Assembly (NCBI RefSeq): GCF_000003815.2
Contig: NC_049992.1
Location: forward strand, 5,034,481-5,098,480
From: Branchiostoma floridae
Lineage: Eukaryota > Chordata > Leptocardii > Amphioxiformes > Branchiostomatidae
Reading direction: 5' to 3'
DNA: 64,000 bases
Below are positions 3,101 to 27,185 of this stretch, one piece after another; position 1 is the stretch's first letter, and every line of letters starts with the position of its first letter. Made by a program: the position numbers and the translations under genes. Below the pieces are notes generated by a model. The model worked only from the letters and a program-made list of their open reading frames with translations, searched no databases and was not told where the DNA came from.

Positions 3101-5464
3101 TACTACTTGTAGAGTGACCACCTTAACAGACTTCCAGAAAATGGTCAAGTAAACAAGTCACAGATCCTAATGGTTATGTCAAGTTGAAAATAAGGCAGGA
3201 CCACTAAAACTTTGCGCCTTTTTTAGTTTTTGATTTTTTATCTATTGTAAACATGACAAACAACTTCTGGAGAAATGTTCATTGGATACATTTGAGCGCA
3301 GATCAAATTACGTAATTAGCTGCCTGGAACCCTGACCACATGTGCACACGTGGCTTAGGTTAGGAGCCTTCGCTGGCACTGCGAAGTCAGCAACGCTCGA
3401 CGCAGGGTGTGCTTCTCAGTCGTTCCCTTAAACAACAGAGACTTTCGCTAGCTCGACTATTTCAACCATGAGCCCGAGAAAAAAGAAGTCGAGAAAGTGC
3501 ACTGGGTGTGGAGAACCCGTGGCCCTACACCCGCCAGGCACAAACGGCCGCTCCTGCCAGGGTATACCGCTAAACCTCGAGGCTCAACTCTCCGGCGGAG
3601 CCTTTTTTAGTTTTTGATTTTTTATCTATTGTAAAAATGACAAACAACTTCTGGAGAAATTTTCATTCTTAGAAATGTCTTATCCTTGAAGGAATGACAA
3701 AAGCCCTGTATGCAAAGAGATGGTTAGTCTTTTAGACTTGGATCCATCCACGTGCAAAGCTGGAAAAGAAGTAAAGAAAAAAGTCCCCCCCCCCCCCCCC
3801 ATAACTCGAGTCGACGCTGGTTGCAACTAACGTAGTAAGGCCCCCTTTCCACTAGACGGCGATCGTGATGCGCTCTCACTGCGACCTAAATAGGATATGT
3901 GTAACCTTCGCTTTCACACTGGGTATATTGTACAAAACGTAAGCGTGACTGATAAGACAACAAAACACACAAAGTGTAAAAACATTCGTTTCTTTTCTAT
4001 ACAATTCATTTAGCGATCTGTCAAATTTAGGTCGCAGAGAGAGCGCGGCGAGAGCGCCGTCCCATTGGAAATGGAGTATAATAGACTAGTACTGTTGTAC
4101 TTTGATTGCAGTTACTGATAACAGGGATGAACCGTTAATCTGGCTGGGTCTGTATAGAGATTCTGAAGAATGGAAGTGGACAGATGGGTCACGTATTGAC
4201 TACAAAAACTGGGCTCCGGGGGAGCCGAATGACAGTCAAATTGACTCGGATTGGAAGGGAGAGGACTGCGTCTCAGTGTATTCGAAGGTGCGTGCTTTTT
4301 CGCCTTTTGTTGGAGTAAAATGGCCTTATCGTCACTGTGTTTTCATTCCTGTTTATCAATGTCTATCTAAAGAAAGCTATCTTTAATACTTTATCTTCGC
4401 ATAAACATATGCTACTGCATGGGAGGGGGTGGTATTCCTTAGGTCGGGACGTTAAGCCGTGGTTACTGCTCTGGACTAGGGCTGGGTACCGGTACAGAAA
4501 ATTCAGGTCCAGGTCCGGTTCAGGTCCAACGGATCAGGTCCAGGTCCGGACCTGAACCTGGACCTGATTCAGTATGACTCATACCAATGGTCCACTTCAC
4601 TACAAAGAAATCTGTTTGGTGGAGTATTAGACCTACACTGGCGTTTTAAAATCCTACAACGCTAACTGCAGCTGTACGATGTCTGTAAAACTTGGTTGAA
4701 ATTACTATAAACTCTACTCTACTTCACTCTTGTTATTTTCTTCCACTGCAAGCGCCAAAACGTGTGAATGCCTTATAAAATAATCTGTTAATTTTCTAAT
4801 CGGTCCAACATCCGGTCCGCCTAATTTTTTCAGGTCCGGTTTTTCTGGACCGGTCCAATAAGAAAAACCGGTTTTGTACCGGTACGCTGTACCGATACCC
4901 AGCCCTACTCTGGACCAAAAGAGCTAAGGGAATTTCGTTGGTACAGTGAACCTAAAAATGTGCATAGGGACCGCCTTTTTTTACGACCAGTGAAAGATGA
5001 GCTCTTCGGTATGCTTAACTGGTACAATATCACTTTATCTTTCTTTTACTCAATAAGGCATCTTTGTAGACGCTTGCGATGAATTAAGAACAAAAGTTTA
5101 TCCAATTTACATATCATTTTGAGCAAGGATATACATATTCCTTGTCTAAAGTTTAAAACAATAATTACCATGAAGTAGATAAAGACTACTTCATCAATAA
5201 TCAATTAATCATAAAGTAGGCGTAGTTGCTATGTTGCGTGCTCTGCATAAAAGAGAGAGCATTTGTGGCTTTGTGTAAATGAGAAAGAGTGCCTTTGTGG
5301 AAAAAACGGCCATCTATGTAGATGAACGTTAAATATTTTATGTTTCACCTCTTTGACAGACCGGAAAAAATTGGCTCTTTGGAAAAAAGAGGCACGCGGG
5401 ACAGTGGAACGACTCCGGATGCGACTCTGATGACTACCCCTACATTTGCGAGAAACCAATTTAA
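114..5464 (+). CDS. EGF/C-type lectin gene (gene 1), 3' eight exons, 5' end outside window
   Basis: Exons: 114-324 (stalk), 451-576, 977-1087, 1729-1839, 1940-2050 (four EGF modules), 2768-2938, 4112-4287, 5360-5464 (C-type lectin, stop 5462-5464). All junction phases agree (0-1, then 1-1 for each EGF, 1-1, 1-0, 0-stop) and the pieces total 374 codons. The EGFs carry the calcium-binding pattern CxNxxxxYxC, and most start DxxEC. The lectin domain has WLGL, an EPN sugar-specificity motif and a WND motif, so calcium-dependent mannose-type binding is predicted. The stalk exon matches the stalk exon of gene 2 (20347-20551), so upstream exons for a membrane anchor probably lie left of the window. 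The first EGF exon uses a GC donor. Splicing is inferred from sequence only; the final domain is well supported. Confidence 0.85.
1262..1306 (+). pseudogene. relic 3' half of an EGF exon
   Basis: The bases encode the end of the local EGF module (GWTGQ, then SCQQ), but no matching first half precedes them. The donor position reads gagtac instead of gtgagt. It lies in the intron between the EGF exons 977-1087 and 1729-1839 and looks like a decayed duplicated exon. Confidence 0.6.
3219..3668 (+). repeat. insertion with a LINE ORF1-like start, flanked by ~65-bp direct repeats
   Basis: Nearly identical ~65-bp segments (3219-3284 and 3600-3666, beginning ccttttttagtttttgattt) flank ~315 bp. The inner part contains an ATG at 3468 opening a basic peptide (MSPRKKKSRK) followed by cysteines in a CTGCGEP context and another cysteine further on, like a zinc-binding N-terminus of a LINE ORF1. 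The frame then runs into the second direct repeat and stops. It sits in the lectin intron of gene 1. The family name is not known to me. Confidence 0.5.
3838..4083. mobile_element. imperfect inverted-repeat element next to lectin exon
   Basis: The ~55-bp ends (from 3838, ccctttccactagacggcga, and to 4083) are imperfect reverse complements sharing ctctctgcgacctaaat-type sequence. No coding capacity. It ends about 28 bp before the acceptor of exon 4112-4287, so it may supply part of the branch or pyrimidine region. Confidence 0.45.
4477..4907. mobile_element. non-autonomous hAT-type MITE with 8-bp TSD
   Basis: The termini are TAGGGCTGGGTACCGGTACA and its near-complement TGTACCGATACCCAGCCCTA. 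The element is bounded by the 8-bp direct repeat CTCTGGAC at 4469-4476 and 4908-4915. Eight-bp target duplications and TAGGG-type ends are typical of the hAT superfamily. The 431-bp body has internal aggtccgg/ccggacct palindromes and no transposase. It lies in the last lectin intron of gene 1. Confidence 0.85.
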
Positions 5465-8400: not shown

Positions 8401-8761
8401 GTCAGTTTGATAAACATTTGCAACTAAGAAGTTACCAACTGCTTCCGGACAGTAACTGTTTCCAATCTGAACTAAACTGAAGAGTCTAAAATACATAGTC
8501 TGCAGACGTTAGTTTTATATAGGACCTCATTAAATTCAGAATCTGTTGCTTTTTTCTGTGCAAACAATCTTTTTCTAACATTATGTATTATCAACTAAAT
8601 ATATTCTTGATTATTCAAATAGACAAACTCATCTGTGACATGACAGTGACCTTTGACATCTACTAGTGCTAATGCTGATTGTCACTACATAGTGATTTTG
8701 GCTAACATTTCTGCACACTCCTGTACCGGTATATTTTTTTTTTTTTACATCCGATAGGATG
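5465..8761. other. convergent intergenic region between the two lectin genes
   Basis: No gene is supported here. It should contain both 3' UTRs. A minus-strand AATAAA (8320-8325) is a possible polyadenylation signal for gene 2, about 440 bp after its stop. At 5905-6060 there are short direct repeats (cacgaat...atgaaattcg, cactatgtgatacg). The rest is AT-rich unique sequence. Confidence 0.5.
7677..7791. repeat. compound tetranucleotide microsatellite
   Basis: About eight GGAT/ATGG units are followed by about fourteen GAAT units, with an ATTA-rich start. It gives a long open frame on the minus strand by chance. Confidence 0.95.
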
Positions 8762-9658
8762 TCATGTTTTACGTTTCTTGCAAAGGTAAGGCTTTTTCTT
8801 CCCGCAGCGTCTGTCATTCCATTTTCCGCTTGCCCGCCTTTCTGTATTTATCGAATTGCTGCCACTCTGTGGGAAATGTTTCATGCAGAAGATTGTTAGT
8901 TTCTACACATCAGTAACTTTTCTGTTCACTTGTCATTTTAGTCTTCCTTGTCTAAGGAGGAAGAAATCAAAGACGAATGCTTCATTTTTATAAACCAATA
9001 AACTGTCTTTGTACTTAAAAGAGGAACACGCACCTTGGAGTACATCACCACACACTCCTCTCGTCCACAGATCCAGCCTGCAAAGTTGTTAGGCTCGCCA
9101 GAGGCCCAGTTTGTATAGGTGAGTAAAGAGCCATCCAGCCAGCTCCAAGATTGTTCATTTTTACGCAGTCCAATCCAAACACCTTCAGTAGTAGGGGCTG
9201 CAAACAAACGGAAAGGGTTTTTAACATCGCGCCTCAAATTTGTTTTGTAACAAATTTTTGTCAGGCCAAGTCAAACAAATTATATTCAGTTTTCTTCGTT
9301 GAATTATAGTAAATTGTATTTTGGGAGTTCAGCATAACACCGAATGCTTTTTATGCACGCATATAATGTGAAGTAGCATGCATGTTTTACTTCTTAAAAC
9401 TAATATCTATTGGAAACAGCACCCTGTTGTGGGGTTTAGGACTCTTTTAAATCCGTCTGTTGATGACAATGATTATTTGCTACTCACATGTTGAGATGAG
9501 ACCTTTGATGAAGTCGTTCTCAGCCCTGCTTGTGATGGAGGCCAGATGTGCACCATATTGTTTACACTTTAACTGTGCATCAGATCCGCTGACACAGTCT
9601 GTCATCAGCTTGTAGCGGTGGTTGTTGTGTTCCGTCCATCCATTTTGACATCGTTTGG
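8762..9658 (-). CDS. gene 2: C-type lectin domain, three exons
   Basis: Exons 9658-9488, 9197-9034 and 8866-8762 have the same phases as the gene 1 lectin exons. The product has CQNGW, WIGLRK, an EPN motif in ASGEPNN, and WND before the last cysteines ([11 protein letters not shown]), ending KKRKT and stop. EPN plus WND predicts calcium-dependent mannose-type sugar binding. In the normally conserved HCYKL segment the Cys is Arg (HRYKL), and a Cys appears a few residues later (MTDCVSG). Confidence 0.87.
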
Positions 9659-12600
9659 CTGCAACGAAACGTAACTGTAGTGAGTTCACACCAAAAGGGA
9701 TACTATATAATAGATGGTTGCAGGTAAAGGTGCGCTCCCACTGCACTCGCGACACTCTTGCGTCGCTGCGGGTTTCGACAACGCAAACGTAACCCCATGG
9801 AACCTAGAGGTGACGCGAGCGAACCTAGAGGTGACACAAGCGAACCTAGAGGTGACACAAGCCAACGCGACGGTTTTTTGAAAGTTAAAAAATAACGCAA
9901 TTGGCAAGATGCCCCAACAGTGACCCAATCACCCAAGAGTGACGCAACAGTGACACAACAGTGACACAACAGTGACGCCAGCATGCCTTCAACACTATCA
10001 AGGTTATATTTTGTCTATTTTGCACCAAGTATCAAAAGTAAACATCCTTTTATAACTGAAAAGCTATTTTGAATACATTTTGGATATCATTTTACAGCGG
10101 TTTTTGATTAAGCTACAACAGTGAGATTTCCACAAAACTTAACTTGTATCCGTATTCAGACTAACTTAAAAATATATTTTGTTTTATTTGATGGGAAATA
10201 GGCCAGAATTCTATACTTGTAAACGCCAAATAAGTAACTGGTATATCGATTCATAAACCTACAGATGTGGAGAAACAGAATACCGTACAACGTTGAAAAA
10301 GAAAGTATATCTATGTTGGATGATAACGTTTGCTTCTGAGTTTGCGATACAAACAATGTAATCATCGCCGGTAGCCTGCCGCAGATTGAACACTAAACTT
10401 GCAAGCAGTCGGACCCATAAGCCATGTTTTTCCCCATGCCTTTTTACGGTTAAAATAAAGGTTGTTTATTTGTGTTTTGATCTGACCACACACGAACTTG
10501 CCAAGGTCAGCTTTACGAGTAGCTAATTAGTTCCAGGCAGGCGGGATAGTCCGGGGCATCATTCCCGGACTGCAGACAGTGCGTGCCCGGACTGCTGACA
10601 GAACGTGTAGACGCGAAATGAAATCATGGCCGCGCTTATCCGCGCCGGTAAAATCTCCAACAAGCAAGACATCGAAGACTACCTCGCTTACACGGTGAAG
10701 GTGTCCGAGCTGTTCGAGGTATACGACGTACCGTCTGCCATATTGTACGACAACCAGTACAGGATCCTACAGAACCGTAACGGCTTTCGCCGGGGGAGGG
10801 ATTCCGAGCACTTACACTGCCGCTTTCTGCGGATCCGGACGGCGCCCATGTCAAGGCCATATATATGGCAATATATTTGTTTCAAAAATACGGGAGCTAT
10901 ATGCGTGACGTTTTTCCTAAAAATCCGACGTTTATCCGACGTATTACAAACTAAGTTATTGATAAATAGATGTTACGTTTGCCGCACGTTAGTGTGACGT
11001 TTCTGTAATACGTCGGACGTCACGTATTTTACGTCCATGTGACGTGAATTTAGGAAAAACGTCACGTATATCGCCCGTATTTTTGAAACAAATATATTAG
11101 CATAGGCGTACGTTAGATTATCGTCATCAGGTAAACGATATTGCAAGTCAGACGATTTTTTTTCATACGATATCGTTCTGGCATGTAAAAGATTCAAATG
11201 TCGAGGAGCAGATGTAGTACAGATGAGAGGAGGTCATAACACAGACCTTAAGGTTACATAATCAGACCTTACCACAGACTGGTACGTCACATTCTTCGAA
11301 TCTCGTGCTGGAGTCCGTGGTGTAGCACCACACTCCGGGTTCACCGTCCGGATTCCGGCAGTAGTTCTGCTCCAGTCCGGATGATGGGTGATTACCAGGT
11401 GTCCTGTCGTGTCCATGAGGAGTCTGGCTGTCCCAGCGCTGACACGTCTTGCCTGTTCTGGTCACGGCGACTGTTCCTCGGTAGGATGATCCGTCTCCAA
11501 CCTGGCAATCTCCTGGTTTATGTGATTTAAAAAGACAGTATTTGATACACGCTGGTTTAATTTTGAAGTGGGGTGTAAGCTAGTCTGGAATGGGAGGATA
11601 TGGTTGATGACAGGCGTGGGGTAATAACACATAGCTTCATGTGCTACCGTGTGGTGATTGCGTTGTATCGTTACGTTTTATCGTCTCTTTAAGGAATCTG
11701 TCGAAACAGAAAAACAAAACAAAATTGAACTTAATCTGTTCTGAAATTGGAATCGTTCATAAGGCCCATTTCGTCCTACAGAAACGACGATTTTTTCGTG
11801 CTATAATTAAACCATCTTTTTCATACAAAATTTTGAAACGGATATGATGTCATAATCGATATCGTTTTGCGTATATGATATCGTCTCGGAATAAAAACAT
11901 CACCATACTCCATTGTACGCAGCAAAATTCACTTTGCTAAGATATCGTTATAAGACGTACCTTAGATTATCGTAATTATGTATAACGAAATTTTGACGAT
12001 ATTTTTTTCATGCGGTATTTTTCCGGCATCTACATTCTATTTCTAAATATCGTATCACGAAAGGTGCGCTATAACGTCTGCATGTACATGCCAGAACGAT
12101 ACCGTATGGAAATGCATCGTCTGAATTGCGATATCGTATACGTAAAAGATATCGTTTGGGCCAGAAAATACGTATATCGTAGAAGTATTTTCGCTATTTT
12201 AAGGTGCGTTTTTAGATATTTTGACAAGGAAATACAGTCAAACCTGCCCAAGACGACCACCGGGGGACCGGAAAAAAGCGGTCGATTTGGACAGGTGGTC
12301 GCTGAGAAGAGTATCGACACAAAACATGCCCGATGCAAAGTATAAATGGTTTCCGTTGTGTAGTGGCAAATAGCAAGCACACTGCATGCACACAAAGAAG
12401 CGAGGTCGATTGTAAATCTAACCCCAAGCTTTTACCGAGCATTTATACGATACAGTGTTTTAAAGCTCAATATTTGTACACTAACGTTTTAAACAGTAAG
12501 GAAACTTTGATGCTGTCAGTGACCATACAAGCCTTTATGCGTCGTTCTTGATCGCCGTATCTGAAAGAACTACGGTGTACCTTTCGAATTCGATGCCCGG

Positions 12601-15600
12601 TAACATGCATTGGCATAATACCGGTCATAAGCCTTATACCGGTCGATTAAAAATAGTGGAACTTAAAGAGATCTACACATGCAACAATAGTTATTTCTGA
12701 GGTATGCACACTTCAGACATCTAGGTGTCCAATACATAATTTACAAAGCATCGATAACAATGCATTCGAAGACAACAAGGCCAAAAGTTATCAGGTCATT
12801 TTCGGGGCAGGCGAGCTCGTCGTGGGACAAACACACTGTCACGTTCATCGCCAGATTTGTAGATAATAATCACATGTGCTCACGGCACAAGACGAGCATG
12901 ATTCAACAGCAATCTTGAATTTCTTTTGGTGACCTACAACTCGTGTAAAAGTGTGAGGAACCGTTGCATTATCGCCCGGATCTACGGCTGAATGGGTCAA
13001 ATTGAACGTACGCCGCCATTTTCCCGCCATTTTCAATGCTACGCCTACGGCCAGCATGCAGTAAAGTTTTACGTCATAGCGGTTGTGACGGACCAAAATT
13101 AAATGAAAATTCTTGTCAGTATACGCCCATTTTCTCATGACTTTTTGTATGCTCATGCAGATTTGTTGAACAGGAAAGAAGGTACAACAGAGGATGTATA
13201 AAGGTACATAGCGGCAGTTAATTGTGCCGTGTTTCGTTCGGCCGGTATAGTGCACCCCCTTCCAACCACGCGCCCGTTCTCCGTGCAATTCCGCGGTGTG
13301 TTCCAATTATGTTTTTAGCAGGACCAGAGAGACAAAATAATTTACACAGAAGAAGTGGCAAAGGTAAGCTGTAACAGCAACATGTAACTGGAGAAAATGA
13401 TGCGTTGATCATTTGCCAAATTAGCATTGCTTGAGAAATTGCAGTAAACCGACCGGTATTATGCCAATGGATGTTACGTCCCGACAGCGGGTGAATGTAC
13501 AGTACAGTTGGACAAAAGCACTCACACAGATCTTTCTTAAAAGGGTATGAGCTACACAGATCTTTCTTAAAAAGCATGAGGCTATATACGTTTCAGCATT
13601 CGTTCACTTTACAATGATATAGATTTTAAAAAAAAACTTCTGTTACAACTACATTCGGATTTTCTCACAGCGAAATTTCCTGCCATATTACAGTAGACCG
13701 CCCCATTGACCCACCCATTGACCGCCGCCATCCTTATTCTAAACATAACTTCATAATGGCAGTCAAAATCCGATGCAAACTGGCCGATTTCGGCACAAAA
13801 TCGTGCTAGTTGTCATCAAAAATCGATGAAAACCTCAATTTTGAAAATGATGCGGTCGTTATGGGTCCCAATTTGGGCCGGTCGCGGTCGCGTTGGCCAG
13901 GTGGTCGTTGAGAAAAGGTCGCTTAATGCTTATACGTCAATGGGGAAAAAATCGGGACCGAGAAAAAACGGTCGAAATGGCCAGGTGGTCGCTGAGAAGA
14001 GGTGGTCGCTCGGGCAGGTTTGACTGTAATGCCATATGTGACACGGAAATGACTCCATATACGGTATTTGACCTCTCCAAAATTTGCCCCCATACAAGAA
14101 TGGTCATACACTCAATTTATATTTGCAGCATCATATAAAGACGTTTTACTGTTCATTGAAGGTACCTTTTAGTGCTGTTGACATGCAGACCCACAGCTTG
14201 CATAGCCACTTCACCGTGTCAGCTAAAAACATAACCTTCTTGGCGAAGGTAATACGTTGGGTACGGTACTTACCGCAGCGATATTCAGCATTAGTAGTCA
14301 GCCCAAAAACGTTTACGTCAGTGGTTTCCCAGTCAATCACGTTGCCATGTTGACGACAGGAGTCTGTCCCTATCTCAGCTGGAGTCAGCACGCGGTCCCA
14401 GAGGTTCAGCTGCGACAGTTCCCCGATGAACGCTTGATGTGGCTCGAACCCTCCCCCAACTGTGTCTTGGTCCTGTGCAAGGATCCATGTTCCACCACTG
14501 CGCACTTTCCCCCCTACGTTAAGCCTCGAGCCGGAAGCGTGACGAACGCCGTCGACGAAGACCTGCCAGGCTCCATCGGTGCTGCTCCAGGTGGCACATA
14601 CGGCATGCCTTTCACCATCCCAAACAGGCAAGGCACCAAGGGGGGCAGTGGGTGTACCTTGTACCCACAACTGGAAAATATGTTTCAAGGACATGGACGG
14701 TCATCTTTGAAATTACAGCATGTATTGCTAAATTAGTCTTGAGAAATAAAAGAGTGGCGAGTTAGATAGCAGAGGTTTGTGATTGACAACTTACTTCCAA
14801 TCCCTTCCCTGCTTTATTGAAGATAAGTAGCTCATTGTCATGTTCTTGTACAGCATAGCTGACCACACCTGCATGGCTGGTGGAACTCATGTCGGTACGC
14901 AGTTCCAGACATAAAGTAAAACTTGTTAAGTCCTGGGCCAATGTTTTCCCCAGCCTGGCGTAGTTATTGACGCTTCGTGGAGCCGGAAAGGTTATCTCTT
15001 GCAAATAACCTACTGTAATTGCTGTAATTGACAGGAACAATTATATATCTTTATCAAGTATTTACGGAGTTCCCGCCAAATACCTGGCAGTTTGCAGGAG
15101 TTCATAAAAGTAACGGCTCAAGTCTTGCCATCCGCGGCAAATAGGTGTTATGAAAGTAAAGAAACCCTTTCAAACAATACATGCATTATCTACAATGCAG
15201 GTAATTGTAATTCCTGTGCAAGTATATACCGATACCAATACATTGTGTCTGAGTTTTGTCAAGTATGATAAAAGATCATTTTGCAATTTCTCATTAGAAA
15301 AGACGCGGGAAAATTTGACACGTTGTTACATAACTTCCGGGCAAAAGCCTTTGCTTCTCAAAATATCCGGGAGATTTCGATATCGATTTAAAGATGTCGT
15401 CAAATAGACTAACACACCAATGGGATCAAGGTGAACTGCAAAAAATCACTTATGTTTCGAAAGCCAAAGCGATCCCTGCCATTTTGAAATGCTGAAATAT
15501 CTGAACCTAGAGCTCCACGACCCCATACCTTCGCCAAATGATCCTAACCTTTACAACTGGTGTATTAATTGTCTGTCATTAATTATGCAAATAAGGTTCT

Positions 15601-18600
15601 CATTTGCATAAAAAATATTACTTGATCATCTCCTCCATCAAACAGACGTACACAATCTGTGTAAGAAATAAGGCTTTTATTCATCTGATAATCACGCAAA
15701 TGAGGACCTCATTTGCATAAGTAATGTTCAACGATGTTCACCTGTACATAACTGCCAAATGCTACAAGTGAGAAGTTCCCGTCATCTACAACAATGACAT
15801 TATAATAGCATTTTCTTATTGATGCAAATGAGGTATATATTTTGCATAATATCTATCTATCAATATTCTTCTCCTTCTCCGTTACAGATCTCACATGTTG
15901 CAATGGTCCTTTAATGGAACTGAGCGTGCTTACACGATTTTCTAATCATTTCTTCAAATTAAGTACCAATTTGCATAAATAATATGTAATTATATGAAGC
16001 ATCAATTAATCCATTTAAATACCAAAAATCATAACAAACCATCAACTCCTTTCAAAGTCTTACACTAAACCTGCCCTGCAGTTCAGAACATGCCGCTAGG
16101 GGGCCCAAACCTATACTTCTTACTCTCGGCATCAAGAGCTCTCTACCACTCAAAAAGCATAGTTCTGTATCCTGAGCAGGTGCATTAATTTGTATCCATA
16201 ATCTTTGTTCACACAGTGTCCATGTGGCATGGTTTCCTGGTACACTCATTGGTGTCTTTGCAGTAGGAAAAAAAAGAAAAGTTGTAGGTCTTTGGAATAT
16301 TTGGAATTGTTTCCAACATCGCCCCCAAGAAAATGTTGATACATTTACCTAGTAAGATACGTGTACTAGTATCTCGGTCAAAATTAAGATGGGCTTCGAT
16401 CATAAGAAATAATGTACGACGCATGTTTCTAACAAAGAAAAGGACATGATAATGCTCCGGAAACTAACAGACAGTATCAAGAACTCGCCTTGCTGACAGT
16501 TCTGTCCAGTCCATCCAGGTAAGCAGGTACATTTGTAGCCACCATCTTTGTTCACACAGCTTCCATGTTGGCATGGGTTCCTGGTACAGTCATTGATGTC
16601 TATGTTGAAGTAATGGATATACCCATCATTAAGAAAGAGAGAATGAAGAAAAAGGATAAAAAAAATCAATAATGCCTGAAAGTGAATCGTAGTCACGGAA
16701 AAAAATAATCACCTTCCTGACAGTTCTGTCCAGTCCATCTAGGTGAGCAGGTGCATTTCTAGCTATTTGCCAGATTTGTTATATTTCAGCCATACCATAG
16801 GCATGGTGAATTATATTTTATTCGTAATGCTTCTTCTTTCTTCCTTCTTTCTCCTGTCAAATCTTCAAAGTACGCTATCTCAGTCGTTCCTGCACAGAAT
16901 GACTTGGAATTTGGCACAGTAGAAGAGTGGGCCAATACCTCGATGTCGTTTTTTTTCTTCATTTTGTTCATATCTGCCTCTAAAATAGTTTTATTGAGGT
17001 TTTATGGTCATTTTTATACCAAAACGGTATATTTTGCCCCCCTGCGCCCTGGTATTACAATTGAATGACCTAAAATTTGGTATAGATAGGCATTAGATCT
17101 TTGATAAAATGATCCAAGTACAGTTTTTGGCATAGACTACTTTAAAATGCTTAATTTCAGCACTTTCCGAGGGGAAATTGGTTTTCTTTCGGCCGCCTGC
17201 CGTGACCTTTCGGACGTTCACCCCACAGAGCCCCACACCTGCTACGGATCGACTGCACACCAACATCGTGCTTAAAACCTGCCTGCTTTGTGTTGAATTG
17301 GAAGTTCTATACATTATGCCACGACCATGTAAACTAAATGTAGTAAAGGCCTACCTGAAAATACTTGGACTTCGCACAGGGTAAGTATACGGGAGGATCC
17401 GGGAAGACAGACTCCCACATAGCGACCCTTCATCCCCTGACAAGAGACGGAAATGGACGGCTGGTTCAAGTTGATGTGATGATCACCTCCACACTTGGGG
17501 TTGGTGCTGACCTGGTCGGAATTCCCGATGTGGATGTTGAAGGGGTTGAGTCGTTTAGCACAACAGTCCTGGCGGTTAAAGATGACCACTCTGTAGATAT
17601 TGGAGACAGAAAATACACAATGGCACCTTAGTTTGATACGCATTGTATGTTCACTGACAGGTAAATATTCATGGTACTCCATAAAACCTGCAAACTTTGA
17701 TAGATCCTCAGGCACTATAATTACTTATACCAAGTATGTGTTCTTTTAGACAAGTAGTCAATCTATCATATTTTATTAGTGATGGATAATAGATCCGGAA
17801 ATATGCTGTAAACGTACCTGTCAATCACATACGATTGGCCGAGATCCACCCACCAGGTTGGATTTGTCTCTCCCGGGTCACCTACAGTGTGTGTACAGGA
17901 ACCAGCAGTGTAGTCAGTATTGGTGTTCCCGTCTACGGCACGGCTGGCAACTCCGTCCCCAAGAGTGCTTGTTTGAAACGCCGTCTTCCCCAGGGCGACA
18001 TTGGCACCTGACCCAGGGGAGGGGACTGTCATTAGCAGTGTGGTACTTGCATCGATGACTCAAACTGAACAACAGCTTTCCGTCATAATAACTACAAATA
18101 AATGTCTGCCTCGTGCAACATTAGGCCATCCCACATTCAACATACTACCCCAAAAAGATAGAAAACTGCGCCTTTATGCTTAATTTAAAGTTTGTGTTGT
18201 TTCAAATCTATCTCACATCTATCAGATTACGTAGGGTCTACTGGCGGGATCTGTCATCTGACCGCACGTATAAGAAAATCTCTTCGTGTTTGTTCAACAA
18301 GTGGACAAGTAGTGTGTAGAACATGTCTAAAACTAGAGTTCGGCGACCTCATACCTCCATGAATATTTAGAGCTTTAGTTAATTTCATGCAAATGACTTA
18401 ACATTAACATGATTTATGCATGGTGTTGTTCATCATTGGATAACGTACAGTACACATGTGACAAGTAAAATTCCCAATTCAAATCATTAATCATTAAGTT
18501 GTTTTGCAATTTTTGCATAAATTATGCAAATAAGTTCCTCATTTGCATATTTGATATCTGCATATGTTCCACCGATTATATGTAAGTATTACATTTATCG

Positions 18601-21600
18601 AAGTCCACTTATTGCAAATAATGGAATTATACAATTTCCTGATTGATTATGTAAATTAAGTCCTTATTTACATAAAATGCATATCATTATGAACCTTCTT
18701 TGCATAAGCTACCTGCATACCTAAAATGCAGGCAATCTGCAGTTCCTTTCTGCAGTTATCCTCTTTGGAGTGTCTTGACAAAAACGCCCCTGCAGTTCCA
18801 CAATTGAATGTTAGGGGACTGAAACTTGCCCCACTTTGTCATGACGCTAAAAGCTATCTACCACCCAAATGTCACGACCATATCACGTACGGGACAAGAG
18901 ATACATTGAAAAAATTGCTATTATAGAATATTCTCATTAATTATGCAAATGTACTAGAATAACAAGGATGAAAAATCCACGATGACGCCAAAGTGAATGG
19001 TAGTCAAGAAAAAAGTAATCACCTTGGTTACAGTTCTGTCCAGTCCATCCAGGTGAGCAGGTACATTTGTAACCTCCATCTTTGTTCACACAGCGTCCAT
19101 GTTGGCAAGGTTTTCTGGTACACTCATTGATGTCTGTGTGACAACACAAAAAAACCATTTGGTTCAATGAATTTTTGCCAGCAGCGTCCAATTGTAGAAA
19201 TTGGACAAATAGAGTCAATAGTACGCTAGGGGAGTCGGCCGGCCAATAGTGGTGAGGATAATGATTCTACTGGTCGGCTGACTCCCCTAGCGTACTATTG
19301 ACTCTGTCCAATTTCTACATTTAGACCACCGATCCACGGAGCCTGGTAGAGGCTACAATTGCTGAGCTTGGGCAATAAAGACAAAGTCAAGTTGATGAAT
19401 AAGTAAATGGGTTTTGAACACAGCTGTGAATCTTAAGACGAATGACAATTAAATCCATTTCAAACCTTGGTGTTGCGGTAAAGGAAAGTCACCTTGCTGA
19501 CAATTCTGTCCAGTCCATCCAGGTGAGCAGGTACATTTGTAGCCGCCATCTTTGTTCACACAGCGTCCATTTTGGCATGGGTTCCTGGTACACTCATTGA
19601 TGTCTGTGTAACAACACAAACAGAATCATTTTGCTTAAATGGACTTTTGCCAGCAGCGCCCAACTGCTAGGCATCAGGCAAGGCAAAGTCAATCTGATGA
19701 GGTAGTATTTGGGGTTTAAACACATGCACAGCTATAAAACTGACGAATGAAAATGAAATCCATTTGGTATTGCGTAAAGACAACGCACCTTGCTGACAGC
19801 TCTGTCCAGTCCATCCAGGTGAGCAGGTACATTTGTAGCCGCCATCTTGGTTCACACAGTGTCCATGTTGGCATGGGTTCCTGGTACACTCGTCTAGGTC
19901 TGTGTGTTTAAACAAATGTAGCAGTATGATACATAGATATATCTTTTGTTAAGAAAGAGGGAGTGAAGAAAAAGAAAAAAAGGATTAAAAATCCATGATG
20001 TTTGCAAAGTGAATGGCAGTCATGGAAAAAGTAATCACCTTGTCGACAGTTCTGTCCAGTCCATCCAGGCAAGCAGGTACATTTGTAGCCACCATCTTTG
20101 TTCATACAGCGTCCGTGTTGGCATGGATTGCTGTTACACTCATTAATGTCTGTAAAACAAAGGGGAAAAAAGAAAGGATTTTTACTCTACTCATCTAAGG
20201 CGTAATGAATAACTTTAATGGCAAGAACACTATAATCAAGTTTCATGCAATTGAATAAAGAGTATTGGCAATAACATTAATGTGTACTCTTGGGGCTAAA
20301 ATAAAGGGTATCTGAATAGTGTTCAACTCAGTCAAATATTACTTACCCGTGGTTGTCCCTAATGTGACTACCATTGGCATGGTGTCGGTGGTCACACTGT
20401 TGTTCGTAAATGGCAAATACGTTGGAGTCGAGTCGATAACTGTGACCGTCCCTAATGCCGAGTTCTTTTCTTCATAGAGTGTCGTCTTCCATGGAGTACT
20501 GGACTCCATGATCATCGTGCCATTTTGTTTCAGCTTTGAGTCAAGCACAACCTACATTCAGAAACATGCACAAATTTATCCGTATGGTAATTAACGCATT
20601 GCAACCAGTAGAAATTATCACACTATATGATCAATAAGGAACTAATACTAGTAACTAATTATAACCTAGTTGCAGAGGTCGACTTGACCTAGCTTTTTTA
20701 CTCGCACAGTTGTTTTCTTATTGCTTGTTGGGTTCTGGTTGCTTTATCATAATATAAGGACTGAGTTTAAAAACATCAACGTCCGGCGAAGTCGACAACG
20801 GAGACTGCAACTTATGTTCCCTCAGGCTACTAAGGCTAAGGTCCCAGAAAAAAGGGGCGCTTCCAGACAGTTCACAGGCTTTTCTTTTGGCGCTTTTGGC
20901 CGTGAACCCTACGTAGCTCCGGCGTTTTCGGGACCGGTCGGGCACCGGAATGTACACACCACTAGGCACCAGTACAATTGGGACCATAGACTGAACAAGA
21001 AATTAAAGCTTACCCTTCCACCAAAAGTTATGTGAGTTGCCAGGATGACAGCGATGACCACTGACGTGACGAACAGAAGTCCACATCCCATTGCAAGCAA
21101 GCAAAAAATGTTGGACTTCCATCTGCTCCACATTTCCACGACACGCTCTGAGATAAACAGGAATGGTAGAAAATGCATTCTGTGTCAGTATGTATCAAAG
21201 ACGTTAAAAGGGGCGTCCAACCTAAGAATCCGTTTTGCCCACAACCCCTCGATTTTTTCCTGTTCAACACTCTTTGTCGCAATAGCAATGGGCCAAACAA
21301 GTTAAGAGCCATTTTGCCAGTGAGATCTTTGCATGTCAAAAACAAAGATACAGTAGAAGCCGTTTAATTGCACACCCCATTTGCCAGCGCATTTCGTGCA
21401 ATTATCAGGGTGGTGCAATAACGCTACATTATACAGCTGGACCACACCAAGTTTGTGATTTGGGGATTCCGTGCAAATAACGGAAGTGTGCGTTAATCCG
21501 TTGTGCATTTAACAGGCTTCTGGCTCGTTCTCATTGAAATGTCAAAAACGATGTCGCCTGACTTTACGACTTGATATTGAGCAAATTATAGACAGCATGA

Positions 21601-24600
21601 CTGGTCCCTTTGTTTTTCCACAACCCCTGTAATGTTTTACAAAAGATGCACCACAACATTCATATTGGTTCATGGCTTTGAAGGTTATTATAACCTCGGG
21701 TGGGATTTCAACCCCTAAAAAATGGCTGTCGCCTGAAAAGATACGAAGAATTCAAATAGTAGCCAAAACGGAACAATTCAGTTCCCCAAATGATTGTTCG
21801 GCAGATGAAACCAGCTACCAAGGCCCTCTGTCCGATCACGTCAGATCGCTACTGTCATTGATCTTGGAGGCTGTGTGAGGAGGTTTATGCCTGTCGCCAA
21901 ATTCGGTAACAAACGTTACCACCACAAGTACGATGGTTGCCACGGTTATATTATCCACGTATAAGACTAGAAATGGCCGATTTTGTGACGCTTTACAGTT
22001 TTTCTGGTTTTCTGAAGAAACAGAAAAAGGGTCATTGACTGCCATTTGTATCCCACCTTGCTTACAAAATGTTGTACAGAAATGACTGTAACAAACGTTA
22101 CCATTGTTTGATGCTTTCGAAGCATTCTGTCTGACCCGGTGCAAAAATGCTGCCCACTTTTTAAATGTCCCTAGGGACGTCAACTAATGTTAATCCTTTT
22201 GAAGAAAATGGGTTAAGTTTACTGTTGTAACAAATGTTACCGGTAAAATTTGTTACCTGTCCTGTAATGCATTACCAATGGGACCGAAAATAATAAGTTG
22301 CCATTTTGTGGCTATGCTTAAAAGAGGAATTTTCCTAAACAACCAGGTAGTTTTCACTGAAAATAAAGCCGATTTATTTTTCGACCAAGAAAATGCCATT
22401 TTTGACATTTCAATGAGAACGAGTGTTCTGCTCTATTGGCAAAGGTTAGCAATCGACGGGTACAAAGTGCGTGATAGTAACGGATGAAGACATTAGAAAA
22501 AATAATAATACAGGTCCCACTGAGCCAATGGCTCAGCTTGTATATCAAGCGTTCAGAGACATTTATCCTCCATGAAATAATAGGAGCCTGTTTAGACTGA
22601 ATGCAAATGTCTTCTATGTTTACATAATCCATGAGCAGTGACATTAATGTTTAACAAACGTATTATAATTATGGAATTCTGCATCGATTATGCAAATGAG
22701 GACCTTATTTTCATAATAAGTGTCTGTTAATGAAGCACCTGCCCTTAATTACATATGCTTTAAAATCTTGTAATGGGAGAGCAGTTACATTATAGGATTT
22801 CTCATGGAGTTTTCAATTCATATCTATCGATGTTCCTTCCTTTAAAAGTATAAATGGCATAAGTTTGAATAGTCATGTCATGGACAGCAATGATTTTATA
22901 ATATTTCCTCATTTATTATGCGACTTACATCAAGATTTGCATATTTATCATTTAATTAAGTCAATTATCATGTCAAGTATCTTCATACCAAAAACGACTG
23001 AAAGCAGGAGACTTTAGATCTAGAATGGCCCAAAGCGACAAAGATGTTTAATTTAGATAATGGCATAAACTACTAGCCCTATATGTATATCTAGCTGTAC
23101 TGGCATTAGCTATAGTCAACATATATAGCCAAACAAAAGCAGGGGAGGTAGATATATCTAAGGAGATGACTCTGCAGTTCCACAGTGGCCTGCTAGGGGG
23201 TTCAAACCTACACCAGTCGTCCCTTATCTCAACACCTTTCTGTCACCTAGAAATCAACACCCCGGCACGTCCGGGAACAAAGATAAGGACGTCCTGCTGC
23301 ACTACCAAGGTCAACCACCAGACTAAAACGCCCTAAAACGCATTAGAAATTGTCGGGTTCACAACACCTACTCACGTACCTAATCGCAATCAATCCAGAT
23401 GTCCTTGAAGCTAAGCGGGTTGTGCCCTTAGCTTAAGAAGTTAAGATATTCGACCAGAGACGCACACACAAACTAAGCTGCAGATCCACAGCATGCCAAC
23501 TAGGAGGTCCCAAACAAAACAAAAAAGGTGGTAACTGCACGAAAGCCTTGGATTACGACCGAACTACTGGAGGCAATCAGTCAAAAAACGGAACTCTACA
23601 ACACCTTCAAGTCCTCTCCAACACCAGAGAACTGGAGAAACTATACTCAAACCAAGAACCGCCTAACGAAAGACCTACGCCGAGCGGAGGCTGAGTACTA
23701 CTCCACCGTTAGTGACAGACTGAAAACTGCTGATGGCGCCCGAGCCTTCTGGTCTGTACTCAAACAAGCAACAGGGAAGAGTAAATCTGGCATTCCTGCA
23801 CTCTCCGTAAATGGCATCGTCCTGGACAAAGACAAAGATAAGGCAGAAACCCTTAATGACGTCTTTGTCAGAGTCACTAAGGAAGCTACGCATCCAAACT
23901 TTACAAGCAGGCTCCCTAAGTTCACTGATGAAGTACTCTCTACAATTCACGTCTCAGAGGAAGAAGTCCTGGGTGTGCTGCAAGGATTACATCCTAACAA
24001 GGCTCCAGGCCCCGATGGAATAACCAACCGACTCCTTAAGGAGGGAGCACCAGCCATCAGCGCCTCCCTTTGTCAGCTTTTCAACTTGTCACTCGCTACA
24101 GGACAAATACCAAAAGACTGGAAGCAGTCAAACGTGTCGGCAATATACAAAAAGGGTGATCGGACTGATCCATCAAACTACAGACCGATCGCACTTCTGC
24201 CCACCGTAGCCAAAGTGTTGGAGAGAGTCGTTCACAACCGCCTGTACACTTACCTTACCGTCAACAATCTGTTAAACGTCAACCAGTCTGGTTTCAAAAA
24301 AGGGGATGGGACAGTCCTACAACTCCTGCGATTGGTTGACAACTGGGCCAAGTCCATTGATGACTCCAATGTCTCCTGTACGGCCGCCGTCTTTCTGGAC
24401 GTCCGTAGAGCGTTCGATACTGTGTGGCACGATGGATTAACGTACAAGCTATCGCGTTACGGAGTTAGTGGACCACTCATCAGCTGGTTTAATCACTACC
24501 TCACAGACCGCCAGCAGCGTGTGGTCATTAATGGTGCTACGTCGTCTTGGAGGTACACGTACGCGGGCGTCCCACAGGGCAGTATCCTTGGCCCGCTGTT

Positions 24601-26080
24601 ATTCTTAGTCTACATAAACGACATCAAGGACTTACCTTGTACATCGGACATCAACAGTTTTGCTGATGACACGTCTTTGTCAAACTCGGGACCGACGGCC
24701 GAGCAGGTAGCCAGCACCACAAACTCCGACCTACAGCTTGTTTCTGACTGGTTTGATGTCTGGGGTCTAGAACTGCATCCAGGGAAGTGCAAGGTTATTT
24801 GCATCAAGTCTGCACGAAGCAGAGTTGTACTTCCTCCTATCTACATCTCAGGCCAGCTCATCGAACAGGTTCCCTTCTACTCGCATCTTGGTGTCACCTT
24901 ACACCAGGCTTTGGGCTGGAACGACCACGCACAGAATACTTCCAGTAAGGCCAGAAAGGTACTTGGATACCTCTGGAGGTTGCGAGGCAAGTTGTCCAAG
25001 GAAGCACTGGAACTGGCTTACCTTACCCTTGTGCGACCTAGGCTGGAGTATGCCTCCATCCTCTTCACCAACATGAGTGTAGCCGCCTCCAAAGTACTAG
25101 AGCGCGTACAGTACCATGCAGGCCGCCTAGTTACAGGTGCAGCGCCAAGAACACCCTACTCGGACGTGCTTCAAGAGCTTGGATGGGACAGGCTCTCAAC
25201 TAGGCGAGACTATCACCGTCTAGTCATCATGTACAAACTGGTTACCGGCACTGTACCACCCCACCTGCAACCACTCATCCCTCAAACAAGACAAACCCAA
25301 ACCCAGCTTCGTCTGCGAAACTCTTCACACCTCCATATCCCTCGCTGCAGAACTACAACATACAGCAACAGCTTTATTCCATATACCTCCAGACTGTGGA
25401 ACAACCTACCAAACCACATCACCGACTCCACCACTTTCCCACAGTTCAAAGCCCGTTGCAGAAGCCACCTCCTGTCAGGATTTTAATATTAAACCCGTAT
25501 GATAGTATACTGACCTTCCACCTACTCCAATCTTTTAAGTTAGCTGACAAATGGTATAGATCAATCTGTATAGTTGCATGACACCTTTTAATCATTGATT
25601 ATTTTATTGTATTATATTGTATGACTTCTTTGTATGTTCGTCCGTATTTTTGTAGGTTCTGCCGCTACCAGCCCAAAGCTGCCTAGGCAGACCCTTGTAA
25701 TGACATGTCTCATCGTCAATAAAGAAAGAAAGAAAGAAAGAAAGGTCCACTTTTACGTCAATACCTATCTTCTCTGTCTACAATGCGCTTACGGTTGCAT
25801 CAAAAGGGTGTACTCAATGCTGTAACGTACCTTTAGATCTGTATGCAAAGCTGACTTCCTTAGGATCTTTGTAAGCATCCTCTGGTTTGTCGTAGTCGTG
25901 AGAAGAAGACTCCTCCTCATACGCGTTGTTTACTTCCTCAGGCACTTTGTAGCCGTAAGCACCCTCTGGGTTTTTGCAGTTGTGGGAGGAATGACCTTCC
26001 TCATACCCCTTGTTGACATCTTCAGCCTTTCGGTAAGTGTGTTCTGATTCATGCGATGGCGTGTTCTCGCCAATCGCCAT
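8762..26080 (-). CDS. mosaic type II membrane lectin (gene 2): tail-TM-stalk-EGFx4-F-lectin-EGF-pentraxin-kringle-CTLD
   Basis: Exons in transcription order: 26080-25831, 21147-21014, 20551-20347, 20149-20039, 19899-19789, 19603-19493, 19133-19023, 18007-17818, 17590-17355, 16599-16489, 15021-14795, 14670-14274, 11512-11273, 9658-9488, 9197-9034, 8866-8762. Every junction phase agrees and the lengths sum to 2874 bases: 957 residues plus stop. Predicted residues: cytoplasmic tail 1-96, membrane segment about 97-120, stalk 129-196, EGFs 197-344, F-type lectin 345-486, EGF 487-523, pentraxin 524-731, kringle 732-811, C-type lectin 812-957. There is no signal peptide, the basic residues lie before the hydrophobic segment, and all disulfide-rich modules follow it, so type II topology is inferred. 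Known relatives of each module bind glycans or extracellular ligands; a recognition role is inference. One acceptor is ambiguous by 9 bp (15021 or 15012), and alternative splicing cannot be excluded. Confidence 0.82.
9721..10233. repeat. interspersed repeat copy A, ~0.5 kb, no coding capacity
   Basis: Homologous along its whole length to 60441-60869 joined to 62906-62980. It begins with sequence rich in cactcgcg/cttgcgtcgct, carries three to four short repeats of gaacctagaggtgac and of acaacagtgac, and ends aaataagtaa. Its intact centre gives the empty site for the LINE inserted in the right-hand copy. Confidence 0.8.
10560..10870 (+). other. possible ORF fragment, unrecognised
   Basis: An ATG at 10626 (context atcATGG) opens a 123-codon frame, of which the first ~75 residues look protein-like ([31 protein letters not shown]). 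The frame then enters the MITE at 10871. The GC-rich leader with repeated cccggactgc resembles the start of a retroelement. I do not recognise the family. It lies in an intron of gene 2 on the opposite strand. Confidence 0.3.
10871..11097. mobile_element. 227-bp MITE with ~49-bp inverted ends
   Basis: The left end (atatatttgtttcaaaaata...) and right end are reverse complements over about 49 bp with four or so differences. The body is rich in cgtcacgt/acgtgacg. No ORF. Its target duplication is not clear. Confidence 0.8.
11100..12210. repeat. ACGATATCGT-rich repeat region
   Basis: Outside the kringle exon this region is dense in atatcgt/acgatat motifs. A ~85-bp segment at 11107-11190 (cgttagattatcgtc...) recurs at 11957-12046 (ccttagattatcgta...), so it is duplicated repeat DNA, not coding. 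Confidence 0.6.
11273..11512 (-). CDS. gene 2: kringle domain exon
   Basis: One 240-bp phase 1-1 exon encodes a full kringle of about 79 residues with all six cysteines in the normal spacing: [26 protein letters not shown] and VC. The YRGTV and QTPHGH motifs are present. The lysine-binding anionic pair is partly kept (Asp, then Glu in PDGE). Kringles mediate protein interactions, for example with lysine residues. Confidence 0.9.
12235..14026. mobile_element. 1.8-kb TA-flanked inverted-repeat element (Tc1/mariner-like ends)
   Basis: The ends read CAGTCAAACCTGCCC, and their complement at 14012-14026 is bordered by TA on both sides. Both ends carry the same subterminal ggtggtcgctgagaagag blocks. 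A second internal inverted pair lies at 12600-12626 and 13450-13476 (cattggcataataccggtc). No transposase is seen; the longest internal frame (153 codons, minus) has no recognisable motif. Confidence 0.65.
14274..15021 (-). CDS. gene 2: pentraxin domain, two exons
   Basis: Exons 15021-14795 and 14670-14274 (phases 1-0 and 0-1). About 208 residues match the pentraxin fold: FTLCLELR and HAVCATWSS supply the conserved disulfide pair, WQVFVDGV follows, then [10 protein letters not shown] and [19 protein letters not shown] and GNVIDWE. The acidic and glutamine calcium ligands of the QDQD and QAF segments are retained. The classic H-x-C-x-[ST]-W signature is altered (A-V-C in place of H-x-C). Pentraxins bind phosphocholine or other ligands with calcium; the ligand here is unknown. 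Confidence 0.88.
15505..16120. repeat. composite repeat copy 1 with ATGCAAAT palindromes
   Basis: Four palindromic cores of the form ATGCAAATnAGGnCCTCATTTGCAT occur at about 15581, 15691, 15821 and 15962, spaced 110-140 bp, followed by a terminal block ctgcagttc...gctaggggg...caaacct at 16070-16110. Same order as the other copies in this window. Confidence 0.75.
16145..16255 (-). pseudogene. decayed EGF exon with frameshift
   Basis: It begins like a real EGF exon (caaag acceptor, [10 protein letters not shown]). A one-base deletion in the Cys-Gln-His region breaks the frame, and the second half has many substitutions with no Cys spacing left. It is skipped in the gene 2 model. Confidence 0.65.
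16489..16599 (-). CDS. gene 2: fifth EGF exon, GC splice donor
   Basis: 111-bp phase 1-1 exon encoding DINDC through GWTGQNCQQ. The acceptor is atag. The donor reads aag|gcgagt, a GC-AG intron, whereas most sister exons have gtgagt. It joins the F-type lectin to the pentraxin domain. Confidence 0.85.
16709..16757 (-). pseudogene. relic 3' half of an EGF exon
   Basis: On the minus strand this reads as the end of the EGF module (WTGQNCQE) with a gtgatt donor-like end. The first half is replaced by unrelated sequence, so it is a decayed exon copy in the intron. Confidence 0.6.
17355..18007 (-). CDS. gene 2: F-type lectin (fucolectin) domain, two exons
   Basis: Exons 18007-17818 and 17590-17355 (phases 1-2 and 2-1). 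The product shows the F-type lectin landmarks in order: [47 protein letters not shown] and LTLCEV. The fucose-site elements are present: a His in SCTHT, and Arg and Asp in RQD followed four residues later by Arg. The His-to-Arg spacing is 29 residues, about three longer than the usual motif. The family binds L-fucose with calcium; binding here is a prediction. Confidence 0.88.
18330..18955. repeat. composite repeat copy 2 with ATGCAAAT palindromes
   Basis: Palindrome cores at 18531-18550 and 18647-18675, with weaker ones at about 18389 and 18935. The terminal block ctgcagttccac...gttaggggac is at 18786-18826. It starts agagttcggcgacctcatac, like copy 1. Confidence 0.7.
19023..20149 (-). CDS. 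gene 2: four calcium-binding EGF exons
   Basis: Exons 20149-20039, 19899-19789, 19603-19493 and 19133-19023 are each exactly 111 bp, phase 1-1. Each encodes one EGF module starting DINEC or DLDEC with [10 protein letters not shown], the Asn/Asp-hydroxylation and calcium-binding pattern (one has CMNKDGG). They are almost identical in DNA to each other and to the gene 1 EGF exons, which suggests recent duplication or gene conversion. Confidence 0.9.
19193..19319. repeat. 50-bp inverted repeat in a gene 2 intron
   Basis: Arms 19193-19242 and 19270-19319 are reverse complements apart from a 4-base insertion (aata) and two or three changes, with a ~27-bp loop. It is a strong hairpin between two EGF exons. 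Confidence 0.9.
20347..20551 (-). CDS. gene 2 exon 3: stalk region shared with gene 1
   Basis: Phase 0 to phase 1 exon of 205 bp. The 68-residue product is Thr/Ser-rich with several NxT/S sites (NGTM, NNSVT) and has no domain that I recognise. Gene 1 has the equivalent exon at 114-324 with the same opening (SKLKQNGT versus SKLQQNGT) and the shared SSTPW and TYLPF motifs, which shows the two genes are paralogues beyond their repeated modules. Confidence 0.75.
21014..21147 (-). CDS. gene 2 exon 2: transmembrane segment
   Basis: Phase 1 start after ctcag, phase 0 end at gtaagc. It encodes a juxtamembrane stretch with Trp, Arg and Lys (WSRWKSN), then about 24 hydrophobic residues ending near VIAVILATH. 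The positive charges before the segment favour a cytoplasmic N-terminus. Confidence 0.8.
21351..21520. mobile_element. short inverted-repeat element, pogo/Tigger-like ends
   Basis: The ends are cagtagaagccgtttaattg and its partner tgcatttaacaggcttctgg. A related left end occurs at 56189 (cagtagaagccagttaattg). No ORF. The superfamily is inferred from the CAGTAGAAGCC-type terminus. Confidence 0.45.
22670..23260. repeat. composite repeat copy 3 with ATGCAAAT palindrome
   Basis: Core attatgcaaatgaggacctt at 22688-22707, degenerate units to about 22950, and the terminal block ctgcagttccac...gctagggggttcaaacct at 23170-23210. It abuts the 5' end of the CR1-like LINE. Confidence 0.65.
23505..25744 (+). 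mobile_element. 5'-truncated CR1-like non-LTR retrotransposon
   Basis: An uninterrupted frame at 23528-25486 (652 codons) contains the reverse transcriptase blocks in order: [27 protein letters not shown] (catalytic Asp near residue 291), [10 protein letters not shown] and FADDTSL (residues 378-384). The endonuclease half is absent, and an in-frame stop lies just upstream, so it is 5'-truncated. The 3' UTR ends in AATAAAG and (GAAA)n at about 25720-25744, as in CR1-type tails. The intact frame implies a fairly recent insertion. It lies in the first intron of gene 2 on the opposite strand. Confidence 0.92.
25831..26080 (-). CDS. gene 2 exon 1: tyrosine-rich cytoplasmic tail
   Basis: Start ATG at 26080, six bases after an acceptor-like cag, so a 5' UTR exon may lie upstream. 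The 83 codons are acidic and tyrosine-rich and contain about two and a half copies of a ~27-residue unit (VNKGYEEG, then VNNAYEEE, then VSFAYRS). Three YxxP motifs occur (YKVP, YDKP, YKDP), a form favoured by Crk-type SH2 domains when phosphorylated. No YxxL/I ITAM pair is present. The exon ends in phase 1 with donor gtacgt. Signalling is inferred. Confidence 0.7.
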
Positions 26081-26702: not shown

Positions 26703-27185
26703 CTGTTAAACCAGCAACAAACTAAGACAGAGACGGCACACCATTTATGGAAAACAACCTTATTGGCGAATGTCATGAATATATGGAGACAGTATGTGGA
26801 TTGAACTATACATATGTCGCTGAAAATAGCCCGAACTACTAGGATACCACTTTCACGTAATGTTCATAATTCGTGCAATATTAATATTGCCTAATATGAA
26901 ATAAATGGTTTCTGTACACTTTTGCTCAAAACAATAACGAATTTCAAAGACCTTCAAAGAAAACAAAAATAATATATCTCTTAACACCGTAGCAAGTCTC
27001 GTGTCATTAAATGCTATTTCACAAAAGCCATCAAATTTTCAAAGATCCTTTTAGATGAAAAAAAAAATTAAAATAAATTCCACTATAATATTTCCGTACT
27101 GAATTCGCCTCATCTGGCATAAACTCTAACCACCGTGCTTGAACAAAACACCAGAGAAACATGAAGTAACCTGCAGCTAGTCAGC

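Follow-up and report, generated by a model that had tools for sequence, protein, structure and literature searches.

The window, a 64,000-nucleotide stretch of Branchiostoma floridae DNA, holds on its minus strand a gene that we rebuilt from its splice sites as 16 exons, all in frame, running from an ATG at 26080 to a TGA ending at 8762 (Table 1). The spliced frame of 2874 nt comprises 958 codons including the stop, or 957 amino acids, and its sole stop is terminal, with no internal stops. The rebuild reproduced, almost to the base, the original prediction of 16 exons with consistent phases and 958 codons. That length requires exon 11 to begin at 15021; with the other AG, 9 nt further on at 15012, the count falls to 955 codons. 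Fourteen of the 15 introns are GT-AG, and intron 10 has a GC donor (AAG/GCGAGT), located at EGF 5 (exon 10). The first EGF exon of a neighbouring paralog uses a GC donor likewise. The encoded modules are, in order, a cytoplasmic tail, a transmembrane (TM) helix, a stalk, four EGF repeats, an F-type lectin domain, a fifth EGF repeat, a pentraxin domain, a kringle and a C-type lectin domain (CTLD). Pfam models matched the 957 amino acids for Pentaxin (4.9e-36; 124.7 bits, cut-off 25), Kringle (1.2e-26; 93.3 bits, cut-off 34.3, full length), Lectin_C (5.2e-21; 75.8 bits, cut-off 22.6), F5_F8_type_C_2 (2e-20, over its cut-off) and EGF (1.1e-32, in five stretches, each over the cut-off). The landmarks claimed earlier for each module are thus borne out by matches that all exceed their cut-offs. 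The F-type, pentraxin, kringle and C-type lectin modules named in the title of that prediction are all present, but the title omitted the five EGF repeats, four before the F-type domain and one after. An open frame combined with such module matches is far beyond chance. No extra module was found in a three-frame Pfam scan of the introns in 8402-17900.

Table 1. Positions in the window of the mosaic gene, its inserted blocks and the neighbouring paralog.
Feature	Position	Strand	Basis or remark
Exon 1: cytoplasmic tail, aa 1-83 (+1 nt), 8 Tyr, three YxxP	25831..26080	-	59/74 aligned residues identical to neighbouring paralog
Exon 2: juxtamembrane region and TM helix (~aa 97-119)	21014..21147	-	hydropathy; paralog exon 32/44 identical
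Exon 3: stalk, two N-glycosylation sequons (N138, N178)	20347..20551	-	19 genome matches including its own
Exon 4: EGF 1, phase 1-1	20039..20149	-	splice model, Pfam
Exon 5: EGF 2, phase 1-1	19789..19899	-	splice model, Pfam
Exon 6: EGF 3, phase 1-1	19493..19603	-	splice model, Pfam
Exon 7: EGF 4, phase 1-1	19023..19133	-	splice model, Pfam
Exon 8: F-type lectin part 1 (Ca motif AVDGN 368-372, fucose His 384)	17818..18007	-	splice model, Pfam, alignment
Exon 9: F-type lectin part 2 (RxDx4R 414-421, adjacent Cys pair 417-418)	17355..17590	-	splice model, Pfam, alignment
Exon 10: EGF 5, GC donor	16489..16599	-	splice model, Pfam
Exon 11: pentraxin part 1 (alternative start 15012)	14795..15021	-	splice model, Pfam, alignment
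Exon 12: pentraxin part 2, Ca-site loop 663-678	14274..14670	-	splice model, Pfam, alignment
Exon 13: kringle, six Cys	11273..11512	-	splice model, Pfam, alignment
Exon 14: C-type lectin part 1	9488..9658	-	splice model, Pfam, alignment
Exon 15: C-type lectin part 2, EPN (aa 903-905)	9034..9197	-	splice model, Pfam, alignment
Exon 16: C-type lectin end, WND (aa 939-941), stop	8762..8866	-	length (105 nt) and phase equal in neighbouring paralog
F-type block, read as insertion	16764..18955	-	DNA relatives elsewhere; edges of EGF-array similarity
Half EGF exon at F-type block edge, retaining its 3' half and donor but not its 5' half	16714..16763	-	
Decayed, frameshifted EGF exon between EGF 5 and pentraxin block	16173..16260	-	
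Pentraxin block: both exons, their intron, flanks	14168..15445	-	72-87% identical to DNA at C3:30.25 Mb
Tail-to-tail paralog: stalk, EGFs, CTLD	114..5464	+	tail and TM exons left of the window (stretch L009)
Paralog stalk	114-324	+	
Paralog EGFs (four)	451-576, 977-1087, 1729-1839, 1940-2050	+	
Paralog CTLD, three exons	2768-2938, 4112-4287, 5360-5464	+	

The neighbouring paralog lies 3.3 kb from the mosaic gene, tail-to-tail, and no F-type, pentraxin or kringle module was found in it. Both genes split the CTLD over three exons with like phases, and exon 16 of the mosaic gene is supported by the last loop of the CTLD, which is long and equal in length in both genes. The tail exon of the paralog (L009 5605-6552) is much the longer, with 316 codons, large internal repeats and 23 Tyr, compared with 83 codons in the mosaic gene. 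Frames in intron 1 of the paralog (L009 ~7080-8318) look retroelement-like by eye, and intron 1 of the mosaic gene contains, in the opposite orientation, an open reverse transcriptase frame (23504-25483, plus strand; RVT_1 7.8e-35). Tandem repeats (27160-28700) lie immediately upstream of exon 1, and the intron between EGF 3 and EGF 4 holds an imperfect inverted repeat of ~140 bases (19186-19326) that is 79% self-complementary. Elsewhere in the window are an intronless open frame of 810 codons with leucine-rich repeats (33003-35435, plus strand; LRR_8 6e-26), a receptor-like neighbour in which a TM stretch and a Tyr-bearing tail can be seen by eye; a minisatellite (38794-39308, plus strand) with three frames of one strand open; and part of a DDAH (dimethylarginine dimethylaminohydrolase) gene (47145-47666, minus strand; 4.9e-6).

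The TM helix is the sole strong hydrophobic helix of the protein (hydropathy 2.6 over 19 amino acids; the best value outside exon 2 is 1.1). Because all of the cysteine-rich modules are C-terminal to it, the N terminus must lie inside the cell, which agrees with the type II topology originally proposed. The claim of a tyrosine-rich tail also holds, with eight Tyr in the first 83 residues. Three of these begin YxxP motifs (YKVP 44, YDKP 63 and YKDP 70), a number reached or exceeded by 473 of 100000 shuffled tails in one run and 547 of 100000 in another. All three motifs are kept in the neighbouring paralog, the one paralog with which the tail was compared. YxxP is a site for the Crk SH2 domain (PMC12071665).

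Most of the ligand residues that we checked are kept. The F-type domain retains the complete triad H384/R414/R421, along with its adjacent Cys pair and calcium motif. It carries the membership motif His...RxDx4(R/K) as H384 and R414-x-D416-x4-R421, and AVDGN fits the h2DGx calcium motif, as the fucose and calcium motifs are defined in a review (PMC5712786). In the printed alignment the His-Arg spacing is 29, compared with 26 in the 1k12 lectin and 24 as written in the review (PMC5712786). The closest solved relative is FBP32 (3cqo, 1.7e-55), with 1k12 matching at 5e-19. For the pentraxin, the best PDB match is neuronal pentraxin-2 (4.9e-36), and six of the seven calcium positions of CRP are identical in the alignment, with one Glu changed to Asp. 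Pentraxins share the signature HxCx[ST]Wx[ST]; its strict form is absent from the corresponding residues HAVCATWSS (621-629), in which C, T, W and S fit and His (621) stands one place early. The kringle has six Cys and is closest to plasminogen and HGF kringles, with plasminogen kringle 4 as the best single domain. A kringle lysine-binding site consists of DxD plus aromatics; the 12-residue segment here has DxE, not DxD, with Trp, Tyr and Arg kept. In the CTLD, EPN and WND are both kept. EPN/QPD and WND are the calcium and sugar motifs of this domain, and the pair found here presumably makes a mannose-type site.

A stalk search of the genome (513.4 Mb, 431 contigs) gave 19 matches, the gene's own locus counted. 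In 18 of these cases a CTLD exon follows in the same orientation no more than 11.2 kb downstream, C4:30102663 being the sole stalk match without one; 26 of 133 CTLD matches, mainly those near stalk matches, were entered in this pairing. Since nearly every stalk leads to a CTLD on its own strand, both ends of the mosaic gene belong together. We fetched 12 of the stalk loci, including the mosaic gene and its neighbour, and found an EGF match beside the stalk in all 12 and a TM exon in 11. Two other family members yielded EGF-type and C-type-lectin-type Pfam matches only. By this comparison of loci, tail-TM-stalk-EGFn-CTLD is one gene type, a predicted lancelet receptor family. A stalk/TM tree of 11 loci (L036, with no TM match, was left out) had good support at one of eight inner forks and thus does not settle relations within the family. 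Some EGF matches of sister members (L033, L037) carry stop codons, which suggests that exons arise and decay within the arrays.

Within this family the mosaic gene stands apart. Among the scored matches (the best 150 of 278 F-type candidates and 129 pentraxin matches), F-type and pentraxin modules fall between stalk and CTLD at the mosaic locus only and in none of the 18 other members. A kringle, among the best 150 of 547 candidates, occupies that place at the mosaic locus and in one other member (C14:9133098, ~0.5 kb before the CTLD exon). With F-type and kringle scoring confined to the best 150, more distant copies in sister genes may have escaped detection.

The family bears directly on whether this is a single gene, as originally claimed, or two or more, such as a receptor and a nested, secreted F-type/pentraxin/kringle gene. 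Pentraxin and F-type exons do occur in other contexts in the genome, and introns of up to 2.8 kb part the modules here. However, the paralogs show the same succession of tail, TM, stalk, EGF and CTLD but lack the inserted modules, and in the mosaic gene these sit between both ends on the same strand and in the same phase. A scan of seven internal introns and intron 1, weak in that it had no positive control, found on neither strand a first exon that resembles a signal peptide and has a phase-1 donor. Separate genes are therefore very unlikely, and we set this reading aside, mainly on the evidence of the paralogs, in which both ends belong to one gene type. The single-gene claim is supported, a single transcript across all modules is very likely, and the middle modules would be joined in one RNA.

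The DNA around the inserted modules suggests how they arrived. The F-type exons together with their intron (17257-18081) are 82.5% identical to DNA on another chromosome (C7), and two further stretches of the F-type block, 18330-18952 and 16779-17242, recur on C19 and C10, respectively. Similarity to the EGF array ends at 18956 and at 16763, the latter in the middle of an EGF exon, and from these edges to the F-type exons the DNA is taken up by stretches that recur elsewhere in the genome. Two decayed EGF exons lie between the F-type and pentraxin modules. Because introns are kept in the relatives of both the F-type and the pentraxin block, DNA copying rather than retroposition is indicated; because neither module was found in the sisters among the scored matches, the insertion is likely to have taken place at the mosaic locus. 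Most likely, both blocks were copied in as DNA, with the donors and direction being putative. The closest F-type protein match among the best 150 of 278 candidates is at C4:31279506 (91%). Pentraxins at the C7 and C19 loci, which have close F-type copies, show 51-65% amino acid identity over exons vs 72-82% at C3, with one 20-residue end piece on C7 at 75%. As the C7 and C19 pentraxins are less similar than that on C3, the F-type and pentraxin cassettes probably came separately. The kringle exon is 81.5% identical to an exon at C14:9.12 Mb, with no similarity beyond the exon edge in the fetched flanks.

New domain pairs reportedly arise in lancelets at a rate above 10 per Myr, with a bias towards 1-1 phases (PMC4284660). 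Phase 1-1 modules with DNA relatives fit this published exon shuffling (PMC4284660), and the mosaic gene apparently arose by DNA-level exon shuffling into an existing receptor of simpler type.

Every module of the gene starts and ends in phase 1, and whichever of the 256 subsets of the eight modules is spliced together, the frame stays open to the same stop, so shorter isoforms are equally compatible with the DNA. The full-length form could consequently be rare, with most transcripts skipping at least one cassette and the ancestral tail-TM-stalk-EGFn-CTLD receptor as the working protein. The GC donor at exon 10 and the two decayed EGF exons nearby are consistent with such skipping. Against it, the F-type, pentraxin and kringle exons retain intact frames and most of their ligand residues, which would be unexpected of long-skipped exons; we regard it as unlikely.

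Selection was estimated between the mosaic gene and its neighbour for the tail, TM, stalk and CTLD, the F-type and pentraxin cassettes having no paralog in the family for comparison. The dN/dS ratio is 0.35 for the tail, 0.18 for the TM exon, 0.72 for the stalk and 0.27 for the CTLD (where dS is high, 1.69); the pooled EGF repeats gave pN 0.095 vs pS 0.293. The stalk, on this measure, is fast-evolving. These values also bear on whether the locus might be a decaying mosaic from which no protein is made. Consistent with decay are the EGF exons next to the cassettes, some truncated and some decayed, the abundance of repeats in the introns and a retroelement frame in intron 1, but all 16 exons are open over the full coding length, and the ratios for tail, TM and CTLD argue against it for the scaffold, if not for the cassettes themselves. 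A dead gene is very unlikely.

The modules added to the receptor are abundant in the genome. The F-type exon has at least 150 matches (the best 150 of 278 candidates) on 26 contigs, with 49-100% identity and many above 75%; the kringle exon has at least 150 (the best 150 of 547) on 22 contigs; and the pentraxin exon has 129. By these counts, F-type and kringle modules are massively copied in B. floridae. Such numbers lower the surprise of the mosaic gene, since similar mosaics are probably common in B. floridae. A pentraxin lies within 15 kb of eight of the 150 F-type matches, as counted with 69 of the 129 pentraxin matches, those dropped being mostly partner exons of the same genes. Our survey of pentraxin surroundings covered 10 regions (20 stretches, of which L018 is 77% N) and eight short loci out of the 129 matches; at E 1e-4, three of the 10 regions had an F-type match and none had a kringle match. 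Two candidate mosaics were seen, each judged from the succession of exons along a single strand: CUB, CTLD, F-type, pentraxin and CTLD at C7:11.080-11.100 Mb (L020-L021), and F-type, fibronectin III, F5/8C and pentraxin at C19:4.629-4.639 Mb (L024).

Several known proteins resemble parts of the mosaic receptor. The neuronal pentraxins include the best PDB match of its pentraxin, and the neuronal pentraxin receptor NPTXR is, like the mosaic protein, type II. To our knowledge, NPTXR carries neither lectin nor EGF nor kringle modules. Proteins that combine an F-type domain with pentraxin, with CTLD or with a TM segment have been described (PMC5712786). One is the Xenopus pentraxin fusion protein PXN1, cloned from liver, which likewise joins F-type to pentraxin (PMC5712786); the mosaic gene has an EGF between the two and also TM, kringle and CTLD, and so is not a plain F-type-pentraxin fusion. 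Drosophila furrowed and CG9095 combine F-type, CTLD, CCP and a predicted TM and thus share an F-type domain and a CTLD on a membrane protein (PMC5712786). They differ in their CCP repeats, as the CCP/Sushi model is absent among the 20 Pfam families listed at E up to 1 for the 957 amino acids, and pentraxin, kringle and EGF are not named for furrowed in the pertinent part of the review (PMC5712786). Lancelet proteins with a fucolectin, two CTLDs, CUB and APEC likewise unite F-type and C-type lectins; their description, in its relevant part, does not name pentraxin, kringle or EGF (PMC12373286), and the 957 amino acids have no Pfam match to APEC or CUB. Kringle, C-type lectin and other domains have also been added to amphioxus adhesion GPCRs, the same kind of recruitment to lancelet membrane proteins (PMC2246102), but these are G protein-coupled receptors, whereas the mosaic protein has one TM and is type II. 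The statement that no described receptor has this module order agrees with our search of open-access papers, in which we found none, although F-type domains with pentraxin, CTLD or TM are precedents for its kind.

Taken together, the reading we favour, and consider fairly likely as a whole, is that the gene encodes one 957-amino acid type II receptor, built on the family scaffold with gained cassettes, that would bind composite targets and signal through its tail. The tail-TM-stalk-EGFn-CTLD scaffold would have gained a two-exon F-type, a two-exon pentraxin and a one-exon kringle cassette between EGF array and CTLD, all fitting phase 1. Clustered at the cell surface, the ectodomain may bind such targets by avidity: fucose through the F-type domain, mannose/GlcNAc/fucose-type sugars through the CTLD with its EPN/WND, phospho-head-group-like ligands in a Ca-dependent manner through the pentraxin, and a lysine-bearing protein through the kringle. 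Clustering could then lead Src-type kinases to phosphorylate the YxxP tyrosines of the tail, and phospho-YxxP might recruit Crk-type SH2 adaptors for actin-driven engulfment or uptake, or for adhesion, probably of microbes. Each ligand, the phosphotyrosine signalling and the immune role are predicted from sequence features, and our guess is that the receptor probably serves in recognition of microbes or other cells.

What makes an immune role plausible is that dispensable lancelet genes are enriched for the C-type lectin domain, together with defence domains (PMC12373286). The protein could instead act in adhesion or gamete recognition, its lectins binding self glycans. Nothing in the mosaic gene is immune-specific. 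F-type lectins have a part in fertilisation too, and among the proteins that combine F-type and CTLD are some from flies for which a TM is predicted (PMC5712786). The enrichment among dispensable genes speaks against this alternative, as do the expansion of the family and its fast-evolving stalk, none of them decisively, and we judge it possible but on the unlikely side. Going further, the family might be an open receptor platform, continually loaded with phase-1 lectin cassettes from the genome-wide pool, with many variants per locus, since any of the 256 module subsets keeps the frame, and cassette sets that differ between individuals, forming a combinatorial innate recognition repertoire; we offer this as speculation that is more probably wrong than right by a wide measure.

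For the single mosaic receptor that we favour, the value of the case is that one can see together the gene that received the modules, DNA related to those modules and an unmodified sister, with a half EGF exon marking one insertion edge and the sister only 3.3 kb away. A protein made as predicted would bring three independent lectin folds together on one receptor and would provide a test of whether such mosaics recognise composite surfaces.
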